Positions 267-4,754 of a stretch of DNA of 64,000 bases are shown piece after piece (within the stretch, counting starts at the first letter, position 1; each line of letters starts with the position of its first letter). The stretch covers positions 1 to 64,000 of the forward strand of contig DASVDQ010000024.1 in assembly GCA_036381035.1 (NCBI GenBank), in the 5' to 3' direction. This stretch comes from Trueperaceae bacterium. Its GTDB lineage: Bacteria > Deinococcota > Deinococci > Deinococcales > Trueperaceae. The notes beneath the pieces are model-generated. The model was not told the DNA's origin. It worked only from the letters and a program-made list of their open reading frames with translations, and did not search any database. Position numbers and translations under genes: made by a program.

Positions 267-1724
267 TCAGCGCAGCACCGACCGCAGGAGGAGGTTCAGA
301 CCGGTGAAGGCCGACCGCTCCCGAGCCCAGCCGCGTCCCAAGGGCGGCAGGCTCAAGGTCTGGGAGGTCGTTCTGTCGCCGTCGGAAAGTGCGATCTCTA
401 GGCGCAACTGGGGTCGGCGCCTCCCGCCGACCGTGCCCGGTTCGATCTCGTCCTCGCTGGGTGGTGCATGGACGTCGGCAGCGCCGGCCGACGCGCCGCC
501 CTGGCCAGCCGTGGCGTGCGCCAGGTAGGGGTAGCCGATGGCGATCCCGACGTCCGCGGCGAACAGCGCCCTCACCGCCGCGGCCACGGCAGCGACGACC
601 TCGGCGGCACCGGCGTGGAGGCCGGCCGGGAGGCGCTGCAGCGCCGTGAGGTGGGGGAGCAGCGTTCGCATGGTTTCCGGTCGCCATGCTACCACGGAGC
701 CCGCCAGCGCCCCATGTCCGGGGCCCGCGCGCTCCTCGTCCCCGGCGGCCACGGCCTCGCCTCCGCCCGGGGCGCCGGACTCGAGGCGGCCGCCGCGGTG
801 CTGGGCGTCGAGGGCCTCCTCGAGGAGCTCGGTGAGCAGGCCGCCGCTGGCGCCCTCGGCGACCGCCAGCGTGAGACCCCGCTCGGCGAGGCGGCGCAGC
901 ACCACCGACGCCATCTCGTCGCCGTCGACGCCCCAGACGCTGCCCTGAAGCGCGCGCTCGACCGCCGCCATCGCGGGCCGCGCGAGCTCCTCCGCCGCGT
1001 CGGCGCTGGCCGCCTTCGCCGCGACGCGCACGTGCACGCCGTCGCGCTTGGCGTAGGTCGCGACGCTGGGGTTCGCGCCCTGCGTCAGGTCGCCGAGGCG
1101 CTCGGCCACCAGCGACTCCCCGAGGCCGTTCGTCTTGTAGGTGCGGGTGAAGATGCTGGCCGCGGGGAAGGGCAGCCGCGGCACCGCCTGCTCCTCCCAC
1201 ATGCGCGTGAGCTCGCGCGGCGGGCCGGGCAGCGTCACGACGTAGCGGGTCCTGCCGCCCCCGTGCGTGCGCACGAGCCAGCCCGGGGCCGTGCCGATCG
1301 CGTTCGGCAGCACCTCGGCCGACGGGATCACGCGCGCCTGCTGCAGGTTCCGCTCCGGCATCGTCCGGCCGGTGGCGGCGAAGTGCTCGCGCAGCCAGGC
1401 GACGAGGCCGTCGTCCAGGTACTGCTCCTCGCCCACCACGGCGGCGACGGCGTCCCGGGTGAGGTCGTCGTCGGTGGGCCCGAGGCCGCCGCAGAGGACG
1501 ACGAGGTCGCTGCGGGAGAGGCCCTGCGCGACGAGGTGCTCGATCCGCCCCCTGTTGTCGCCGACGCGGGCCGACCAGAGGACGTCGACGCCGCGGCGCG
1601 CGAGGTCGCTGGCCAGGTAGGCGCTGTTCGTGTCGACGATCTCGCCGAGCAGGAGCTCGGTCCCGACGCTGATCAGCTCCGCGCGCTCGACGGGGGTCTC
1701 GCCCTCGGCTCCGTGGGTAGCCAC
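267..1724 (-). CDS. cinA: CinA-family protein (competence/damage-inducible)
   Basis: A 485-residue CinA. The N-terminal MoCF-type domain (about residues 10-180) is intact, with GTELLLGEIVDTNSAYLA and GGLGPTDDDLTRDA; in characterised CinA proteins this domain has ADP-ribose pyrophosphatase activity. The C-terminal domain corresponds to nicotinamide-nucleotide amidase PncC but looks dead. The family AESCTGG becomes AEGASGG, the NEAK lysine becomes Met (RPETMR), and the SGIAGP-type motif becomes AIGYPYLA; a low-complexity Gly/Ala/Glu-rich insert of about 40 residues follows the first motif. The start is GTG 1724, because the frame above it has no homology and a -10 box (TACCAT, 1733-1738) lies 8 nt upstream, implying a leaderless mRNA. 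It is probably cotranscribed with recA. Confidence 0.88.
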   Translation of the reverse strand: MATHGAEGETPVERAELISVGTELLLGEIVDTNSAYLASDLARRGVDVLWSARVGDNRGRIEHLVAQGLSRSDLVVLCGGLGPTDDDLTRDAVAAVVGEEQYLDDGLVAWLREHFAATGRTMPERNLQQARVIPSAEVLPNAIGTAPGWLVRTHGGGRTRYVVTLPGPPRELTRMWEEQAVPRLPFPAASIFTRTYKTNGLGESLVAERLGDLTQGANPSVATYAKRDGVHVRVAAKAASADAAEELARPAMAAVERALQGSVWGVDGDEMASVVLRRLAERGLTLAVAEGASGGLLTELLEEALDAQHRGGRLESGAPGGGEAVAAGDEERAGPGHGALAGSVVAWRPETMRTLLPHLTALQRLPAGLHAGAAEVVAAVAAAVRALFAADVGIAIGYPYLAHATAGQGGASAGAADVHAPPSEDEIEPGTVGGRRRPQLRLEIALSDGDRTTSQTLSLPPLGRGWARERSAFTGLNLLLRSVLR

Positions 1725-1753: not shown

Positions 1754-1759
1754 TAGAAT
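1754..1759 (+). promoter_or_regulatory. Putative -10 box of the structured RNA
   Basis: TAGAAT lies 6 nt before the first stem of the structured RNA (1765), which would put initiation near 1765-1767. No good -35 hexamer is visible 16-18 nt upstream, so the assignment rests on the -10 and on the position of the RNA fold. Confidence 0.45.
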
Positions 1760-1764
1760 CCGTT

Positions 1765-1876
1765 CGGTCCCCACCCCCGGGACCGAGATGGGCGCTCACC
1801 CCAGCGCCTACGGAGGGATGAACCCTCCACCATCTCCTCTTTGACCCTGCGCCCCCCACGCAGGGTCCTTTTCTTC
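1765..1876 (+). ncRNA. Unidentified structured RNA (hairpin, three-way junction, terminator)
   Basis: About 110 nt with nested pairing. Stem 1 is CGGTCCC (1765-1771) with GGGACCG (1779-1785). P1 is GAGATGG (1785-1791) with CCATCTC (1830-1836), closing a three-way junction. Within it P2 is GCGCT (1792-1796) with AGCGC (1803-1807), and P3 is GGAGGG (1812-1817) with CCCTCC (1823-1828) capped by ATGAA. A 9-bp terminator hairpin and CTTTTCTT follow. GGGCGC (1790-1795) could instead pair with GCGCCC (1849-1854), which would break the terminator and give a switch-like expression platform. I could not match it to a known riboswitch, T-box or sRNA family. It lies upstream of moxR, which also has its own promoter, so it may be a cis attenuator or a free-standing sRNA. 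Confidence 0.6.
1843..1876 (+). terminator. Rho-independent terminator of the structured RNA
   Basis: GACCCTGCG (1843-1851) pairs perfectly with CGCAGGGTC (1859-1867) around the loop CCCCCCA, followed by CTTTTCTT. The T-rich tail is on the plus-strand 3' side only, so it acts on plus-strand transcripts. It is the clearest intrinsic terminator in the window. Confidence 0.8.
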
Positions 1877-2013
1877 GGCCGCCTCGCCCGCGCGCTCGGG
1901 GCGCCGACGGGCGGCGTCGCATCGCCCCGCGCGCCGACCCTGGCTCCTGGGGAGCGGCCGAGGACCGCTCGGCCCGCGTCCATGCCTCTAACTGCGGTGC
2001 CAGAAGCCGGTGC

Positions 2014-2019
2014 TAGCAT
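2014..2019 (+). promoter_or_regulatory. Extended -10 (TGC-TAGCAT) of the moxR gene, leaderless type
   Basis: TGC TAGCAT ends 6 nt before the ATG at 2026. There is no Shine-Dalgarno between them, so a leaderless mRNA is likely. Confidence 0.55.
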
Positions 2020-2025
2020 CCGGCA

Positions 2026-3510
2026 ATGGAAGACTTCGCCGCCCACACGAAGCGCCCGGAGAGCGGGCGTCCCACGGTGCTCGCCGAGCTGCGCGGCACG
2101 CGTTGGGAGCGGCTGGCCGGCCGCAGCGTCAAGGACGAGCTCAGGGCCAACCTGATCCGCAAGCTGCGCGCCGGCGAGGACCTGTTCCCCGGCGTGCTCG
2201 GCTACGACGAGACGGTCACGCCCGCGGTCGTCAACGCGATCCTCTCGCGCCACAACTTCATCCTCCTCGGCCTGCGCGGGCAGGCCAAGACCCGCATCCT
2301 GAGGCAGCTCGTCGAGCTGCTCGACGAGGAGATCCCCTACGTCGCCGGCACGGAGCTGCACGACGACCCGTTCGCCCCCATCAGCGCGCAGGGGCGCGCC
2401 ATCGTCGAGGAGTGCGGCGAGGCCACGCCCGTCGCCTGGCTGCCGCGCGACCACCGCTACCTCGAGAAGCTCGCCACGCCCGACGCCACGGTCGCCGACA
2501 TCATCGGCGACATCGACCCCATCAAGGCCGCCCGGCTCGGCACCTCCCTCGGCGACGAGCGCGCCGTGCACTACGGCCTGCTGCCGCGCGCCAACCGCGG
2601 GATCTTCGCGATGAACGAGCTGCCCGACCTCGCCGGCAAGGTGCAGGTCGCGCTGTTCAACGTCATGCAGGAGGGCGACGTCCAGATCAAGGGCTACCCC
2701 GTGCGCCTGCCGCTCGACGTCCTGCTCGTCTTCAGCGCCAACCCCGAGGACTACACGGCCAGGGGCAAGATCATCACGCCGCTCAAGGACCGCATCGGCA
2801 GCGAGATCAGGACCCACTACCCGCGCACGCTCGAGGAGGGCATGGCGATCACCCGGCAGGAGGCCTGGCTCGCGCGCGACGGCGAGAGCCCCGTGCACGT
2901 GCCCGCCTTCGTGGCCCAGGCCGTCGAGGAGGTGGCGTTCCAGGCGCGCGACGACTCCCGCGTCGACAAGCACTCAGGCGTCTCCCAGCGCCTGCCCATC
3001 AGCCTGCTCGAGAACGTCGTCTCGAACGCGGAGCGGCGTGCGCTCACGCTGGGCGAGGACCGCCCCATCGCGCGCGTCAGCGACCTCTACGCCGCCTTGC
3101 CGGCCGTCACGGGCAAGCTCGAGCTCGAGTACGAGGGCGAGCTCAAGGGCGCCGAGGCCGTGGCCCGCGACATCGTGCGCCGCGCCATCGGGCAGGCGTT
3201 CGGCCGTCACGCCACGTCGCTCGACACCGACGACGTCGTCGCCCACTTCGAGGCCGACAACCAGCTCCGCGTGCCCGACCAGGTGAGGACCGCGGACCTC
3301 CTCGAGGTGTTCGCGGCGGTGCCCGGCCTGCTCGACGCCGCCAGGGCGCTCGCCCCCGGCGGCGCGGCCGACGAGGTGGCTGTCGCCGCCGAGTTCGTGC
3401 TCGAGGGGCTCTACGCCAGGAAGCTGATCTCCCGCAGCGAGGAGCGCGGCTACACCGCGGCCGACCTCGACACCGCCGCGTCGGCCGCGCCGCGGGCCCG
3501 CTGGAACTGA
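2026..3510 (+). CDS. MoxR/magnesium-chelatase-type AAA+ ATPase
   Basis: 494 residues. The AAA+ module lies at about residues 60-330, with a MoxR-type Walker A (GLRGQAKTR, near residue 84), a Walker B-like [10 protein letters not shown], and a sensor-1 stretch ([15 protein letters not shown]). The C-terminal 160 residues are helical. The family consists of ATP-driven chaperone-like motors that usually insert cofactors or remodel partners together with a von Willebrand A protein. Exactly such a partner begins 8 nt downstream, so the two probably form one complex. The ATG at 2026 is chosen because the -10 box lies 6 nt upstream. The substrate is not known. The structured, terminated RNA upstream may influence read-through into it. 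Confidence 0.85.
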
Positions 3511-3518
3511 GGCCAGGC

Positions 3519-4754
3519 GTGCCCACCGTCAGGTACTCGAAGTACGAGGCGACGCTCGAGGACCTCGAGCCCTCCGACCTCATGCGGATGCTCGCGGACA
3601 GGCTGCTGCAGTCGGGCTTCGACCGCGACCCGTTCGACCCCGACCCGGACTGGCGCCCCACCATGGAGGACCTCTACGAGGCCATCGCCGAGGCGCTGAT
3701 CCAGGAAGACCTCGTCTCGGAGGAGATGATCCGCCAGGCCATGGAGGCCGAGGACTGGCTCGACTCGGAGATGGGCCGCGTGGTCAAGCAGCTCGCCAAG
3801 CGGCTGGCCGACGAGGGCTTCATCCGCCCCGAGGGCACCGAGCCCGGCGAGCGCGAGGCGCCGGGACCGGGCCACGGCGGCGAGGTGCCGGGGCGGTCCC
3901 AGTTCCAGCTCACCGACAAGGCCATCGACTTCCTCGGCTACCGCACCCTGCGCGACCTGCTCGGCGCGGCCGGGAGGTCGTCCGTCGGCAGCCACGACAC
4001 CCGCTTCACGGCCGCCGGCGTCGAGGCCGTGGGCGAGTCGAAGCGGTACGAGTTCGGCGACAGCCTCAACCTCGACGTCTCCGAGACCCTCAAGCACGCG
4101 GCCAGGCACGGGCTGGGCCGCCTGAGGCTCGAGGAGGAAGACCTCTTCGTCATGCAGGCCGAGTACCGCTCGTCGGCGGCGACGGTCGTGATGCTCGACT
4201 GCAGCCACTCGATGATCCTCTACGGCGAGGACCGCTTCACGCCGGCCAAGCGCGTCGCGCTGGCCCTCGCCCACCTGATCCGCACGCAGTACAGCGGCGA
4301 CTCGATCCACTACGTCCTGTTCCACAACTCGGCCGAGGAGATCCCCCTCTCCGAGCTCGCGGCCGCGCAGGTGGGGCCGTACCACACGAACACGGCCGAG
4401 GGCCTGAGGCTCGCGCAGAAGATCCTCAAGCGCGAGAGCAAGGACATGAAGCAGATCATCATGATCACAGACGGCAAGCCCTCGGCGATCACGCTCCCCG
4501 ACGGACGCGTCTACCGGAACGCCTACGGGCTCGACCCCCTGGTGCTGGGGGAGACGCTGCGGGAGGTGGGCAACTGCCGACGTCACGGCATCCAGGTCAA
4601 CACGTTCATGCTCGCGCGCGACCCGGAGCTCATCGCCTTCGTGAGGCGCGTCAGCGCCATGACCCGCGGCAAGGCCTACTTCACGACGCCGCACACGATC
4701 GGCCGCTACGTCCTGCAGGACTTCCAGTCGCGGCGCACCAAGATGGTCAACTGA
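3519..4754 (+). CDS. von Willebrand factor A domain protein, MoxR partner
   Basis: 411 residues starting at GTG 3519, 8 nt after the MoxR stop; a weak GAGG precedes it. The N-terminal half is acidic and helical with no recognised fold. The C-terminal half (about 215-400) is a VWA domain with an intact MIDAS motif DCSHS followed by the threonine and aspartate regions (YHTNTAEG and MITDGKPS). VWA proteins paired with MoxR ATPases bind a metal and recruit the substrate for the motor. Strong operonic linkage supports a joint function; the actual target cannot be read from sequence. Confidence 0.85.

Follow-up and report, generated by a model that had tools for sequence, protein, structure and literature searches.

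A predicted Trueperaceae-specific small-RNA family with a conserved stretch complementary to the Shine-Dalgarno sequence

A structured RNA between cinA and moxR

The window, the whole 64,000-nucleotide stretch of Trueperaceae DNA analyzed here, carries cinA on the reverse strand and, divergent from it, genes for a MoxR-like ATPase and a VWA-domain protein. The features found at this locus, with the source of each assignment in brackets where one applies, are as follows.

267..1724, minus strand: cinA, divergent neighbour (NCBIfam TIGR00200)
1738-1733, minus strand: -10-like TACCAT of cinA (sequence)
1754..1759, plus strand: -10 box TAGAAT of the sRNA promoter (sequence)
~1765-1766, plus strand: predicted sRNA start (sequence)
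1765..1785, plus strand: hairpin 1, with the C-rich loop CACCCCC (fold)
1785..1791, plus strand: GAGATGG, whose possible pairing with 1830-1836 would mask the conserved stretch (fold)
1791..1808, plus strand: extra hairpin GGCGCT-CACCCC-AGCGCC (insertion, window copy only)
1812..1828, plus strand: hairpin 2, GGAGGG-ATGAA-CCCTCC (model R1)
1829..1839, plus strand: unpaired stretch ACCATCTCCTC, complementary to Shine-Dalgarno, predicted seed (conservation)
1843..1867, plus strand: intrinsic terminator of 9 bp with the loop CCCCCCA (sequence and alignment)
1868..1875, plus strand: T-tail CTTTTCTT (sequence)
~1872, plus strand: predicted RNA 3' end (sequence)
2011..2019, plus strand: extended -10 box TGCTAGCAT of moxR, 6 nt 5' of the ATG at 2026
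2026..3510, plus strand: moxR-like AAA ATPase gene (Pfam)
3519..4754, plus strand: gene for a VWA-domain protein (Pfam VWA_2)

The product of cinA has a good N-terminal domain, while its C-terminal PncC amidohydrolase domain is matched only in fragments. An earlier sequence-only reading of this DNA had described a -10 box, hairpins, an intrinsic terminator with a T-tail and a separate -10 for moxR. The TAGAAT box, the hairpins at 1765-1785 and 1812-1828, the 9-bp terminator with its T-tail and the extended -10 of moxR were all recovered in the sequence or the fold. A TANNNT box also lies just 5' of hairpin 1 in most relatives; no convincing -35 box was found for the sRNA promoter, and a sigma-70 scan of it was negative. 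As judged from these elements, positions 1765-1872 (+) are a stand-alone small-RNA gene with a predicted RNA of ~107 nt.

Folding of the RNA from 1760 to 1877 gave an energy of -56.2 kcal/mol versus -34.6 ± 3.3 kcal/mol for 200 shuffled sequences (z = -6.7), none of which reached the native energy. The three-way junction proposed from the sequence, closed by GAGATGG (1785-1791) and CCATCTC (1830-1836), is co-minimal with the open form, both at -56.2 kcal/mol; it therefore stands as an equal-energy alternative, and in the window copy only, because the hairpin at 1791-1808 is an insertion that aligned relatives lack. The conserved stretch has a mean unpaired probability of 0.73 over 13 predicted transcripts but of 0.40 in the window copy, whose seed is half masked because of this private extra hairpin.

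Conserved structure and distribution of the family

Searches against Rfam 15 returned no match at the gathering level for the window RNA. The best sub-threshold scores were 19.5 of 47 bits for 6C RNA (RF01066), which likewise has hairpins with C-rich loops but differs in architecture, and 17.9 of 50 bits for Betaproteobacteria_toxic_sRNA. The core was found by blastn in many genomes of Trueperaceae. A covariance model, R1, comprising hairpin 2, the linker and the terminator, gave matches at E <= 4e-6 in 16 of the 39 Trueperaceae genomes, spread over 10 of 17 genera; matches to the related family B described below are left out of this count. Among the tested genomes of the phylum outside Trueperaceae, there was no R1 match better than E 0.0037. 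When 84,980 species were scanned with a sequence pattern, 13 Trueperaceae/Deinococcota loci were found besides three chance-like others, two with R1 scores of only 15-16 bits and one without a match.

In the A5 alignment of 28 copies, which was fitted to model R1, standard pairs occupy 93.5% of pair cells and two-sided changes occur in 13 of 15 pairs (matched by 0 of 500 shuffles), including six of six in hairpin 2. A MAFFT alignment that was not structure-fitted showed the terminator stem to be paired in 100% of cells, with two-sided changes at 5 of its 9 pairs. There, hairpin 2 is misaligned owing to variation in the length of its loop, but the tested relatives form it when folded one by one. 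Most relatives also have a hairpin at the place of hairpin 1, with a different sequence. The conserved core, not singled out in the sequence-only reading, spans 1812-1868. It includes ACCATCTCCTC (1829-1839), an unpaired stretch that separates hairpin 2 from the terminator and is invariant in 16 of 16 sequences (alignment A3); ATCTCCTC is retained in 27 of the 28 copies of A5. The CU-rich stretch reads ACCAUCUCCUC in the window copy and AUCUCCUCUCU in most copies. Stems vary freely around a fixed stretch complementary to the Shine-Dalgarno sequence. Two checks proposed with the sequence-only reading, on covariation in relatives and on membership in Rfam, thus gave covarying relatives and no known family. 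From these comparisons, the window RNA is a putative member of a new, Trueperaceae-specific, multi-copy sRNA family whose kind of function is already known from elsewhere.

Independence from moxR and dispersed copies

The position between cinA and moxR is conserved: the sRNA is followed by moxR in 13 genomes, and in 12 cinA is divergent from it. This conserved place 5' of moxR, and the existence on paper of a 6-nt pairing between 1790-1795 and 1849-1854 that would undo the terminator, are what speaks for a cis-acting leader, that is, a riboswitch or attenuator that would control moxR-vwa through the formation and disruption of the terminator. The fold that contains this anti-terminator, however, reaches only -32.0 versus -56.2 kcal/mol, a deficit of 24 kcal/mol relative to the best fold, and the pairing is unique to the window copy rather than conserved. 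Judging by its sequence, moxR also has a promoter of its own and is leaderless; boxes like its extended -10 occur in L003, L004, L009 and L078 as well. Of the 133 genes called on the window contig, 26 have TANNNT shortly 5' of their start, versus 0 at a control position. Many genes of this contig look leaderless, for example at 2011-2026 and 1724-1738, and cinA is probably leaderless too.

Copies elsewhere, in genomes G001, G017 and G007, lie between unrelated genes, and at five dispersed copies (L068, L071, L072, L073 and L077) the next gene is convergent with the sRNA, so that these cannot be 5' leaders. As moxR has its own promoter and the family includes dispersed and convergent copies, the RNA is a gene of its own and not a leader. 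The terminator switch put forward earlier, with an anti-terminator both weak and confined to the window copy and dispersed copies that lack a suitably oriented downstream gene, was abandoned, and we regard a cis-acting leader as very improbable. The other option raised at the time, a stand-alone sRNA of no known class, is borne out by the absence of an Rfam hit, the covarying relatives, the convergent dispersed copies and the separate moxR promoter.

Copy number varies between genomes. Three copies lie within 1.2 kb in G009, and G001 and G017 hold many copies, some of them near contig ends with shared flanks, as might be expected of a short repeat or a mobile terminator module that regulates nothing. 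Against such a module stand an orthologous position that is fixed across genera, stems that covary around a fixed unpaired stretch and -10 boxes upstream, which together make it the least probable of the explanations considered. In G001, the short copies at L075, L079 and L081 lie near contig ends, beside one TPR-like gene family, and share downstream sequence; a recent duplication of these copies is possible.

Proposed function, a related family and a shared promoter box

We consider it likely that the window RNA, as the product of a stand-alone gene of a Trueperaceae-specific multi-copy family, is a trans-acting anti-Shine-Dalgarno sRNA that works independently of Hfq. Transcription from the promoter at 1754-1759 would yield an RNA of ~107 nt ending at the terminator, whose helices would present the unpaired CU-rich stretch. 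This stretch, possibly aided by the C-rich loops, would pair with the Shine-Dalgarno regions of several mRNAs and so, without Hfq, block their translation; in the window copy, the extra hairpin would let GAGAUGG partly mask it. The gene, its structure, its conservation and its independence from moxR come out of the computation itself, whereas we infer expression, base-pairing, repression and targets. A search of eight Trueperaceae genomes detected no Hfq.

Target searches yielded no conserved target for the predicted seed. A single long complementary target was rejected, near-matches to AGAGAGGAGATGGTG in ten genomes falling mostly inside coding sequence, as was nuoA as a conserved target, since it pairs well in G011 only. 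Over the 133 genes of the window's contig, many of which look leaderless, the preference of the seed for start regions was not significant, 20 of 100 shuffled seeds doing as well. The 3' end of 16S rRNA was considered as a partner, but two genomes searched for SSU rRNA yielded none. The CU- and C-rich stretch of a stand-alone RNA may instead bind a protein, much as CsrB is a sponge for CsrA. The several C-rich loops with one fixed unpaired motif fit a sponge, as do the lack of a conserved mRNA target and of detectable Hfq in the eight genomes; the motif, however, resembles the anti-Shine-Dalgarno motifs of proven base-pairing sRNAs, and the partner protein is hypothetical. We therefore hold a sponge to be unlikely, if less so than a leader or a repeat.

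The predicted base-pairing sRNA has counterparts in other lineages. The csRNAs of streptococci, members of the CiaRH regulon, have been proposed to bind ribosome-binding sites, and their response regulator acts via TTTAAG-N5-TTTAAG (PMC3091779). Like them, the Trueperaceae family has several related copies per genome, a terminator hairpin (PMC3091779) and an unpaired anti-Shine-Dalgarno stretch between two stem-loops, although that of the csRNAs also matches the start codon and that of the window copy is half masked. The csRNAs belong to another phylum, and common origin is not evidenced. LhrC of Listeria monocytogenes, which has been shown to bind ribosome-binding sites, is under response-regulator control and acts on lapB without Hfq (PMC4132741). 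It too is multi-copy with a CU-rich anti-Shine-Dalgarno motif in an unpaired region, but this motif is UCCC, versus AUCUCCUC here, and no sequence is shared. NfeR1 has likewise been shown to bind ribosome-binding sites (PMC10746234), and in the NfeR1/alpha-r14 and cuckoo RNAs, as here, an ultraconserved anti-Shine-Dalgarno motif is unpaired while the stems vary (PMC10746234). The NfeR1 type, which is rhizobial, carries CCUCCUCCC in three hairpins, whereas the present family has one main linker motif.

Weak R1 matches revealed a related RNA, family B (the window RNA being family A). It begins with GTGGA and has a CUCCC loop, a linker rich in C and U, and CUCCCA as the loop of its terminator. 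An example lies at L080:2067-2152 (G000:C7:5166-5251), and others at L082, L085-L093 and L141. Family B has three CU-rich motifs and occurs in most Trueperaceae genera; it sometimes lies 5' of rpsA (S1), and in G000 it is convergent with a pstB-like gene. Its model, R2, detects family B in the majority of genera; copies of family A score with it too, the window copy reaching 34.5 bits. This agrees with a common descent of the two families, and the shared C-rich terminator may partly explain the R2 score.

Upstream of family B copies, and of the family A copies of G008, G009 (as a variant) and G011, lies the direct repeat TGTAAG-N5-TGTAAG, which is similar to the TTTAAG-N5-TTTAAG of the csRNAs; the window copy has neither form upstream. 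Allowing up to two mismatches, the box was matched 36 times in five genomes versus once for the reversed pattern. Among the other genes behind it are those for type IV pilins, a PilT-like ATPase, a PilJ-domain histidine kinase and a response regulator, and it also precedes genes located after c-di-GMP-II riboswitches. Box-bearing loci, with the box at locus position ~1501, include L126, L127, L132, L133, L136, L144 and L148, and c-di-GMP-II riboswitches lie at L137:754-989 and 1577-1660, L127:374-613 and L132:1589-1672. Two of these riboswitch loci carry two riboswitches in tandem. Phosphate regulation through a Pho box was rejected, since the genes that lie behind the box are pilin genes, a PilT-like ATPase gene, c-di-GMP-II riboswitch genes and others, not pst. 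As a tentative proposal that we think rather doubtful, an OmpR/PhoB-type regulator acting on TGTAAG-N5-TGTAAG might co-control type IV pili, c-di-GMP-riboswitch genes and both families of Hfq-independent anti-Shine-Dalgarno sRNAs, the window RNA belonging to one of them. If true, that network would parallel, by convergence, the CiaR-csRNA system of streptococci.

The literature searched held no described sRNAs for this lineage, to which the present analysis adds a predicted sRNA family with strong comparative support, in the face of no detectable Hfq. Its fixed anti-Shine-Dalgarno stretch, free-running stems and several copies would make it a case of convergent evolution, and its association with the box found at pilus and c-di-GMP promoters points to a post-transcriptional side of surface behaviour.
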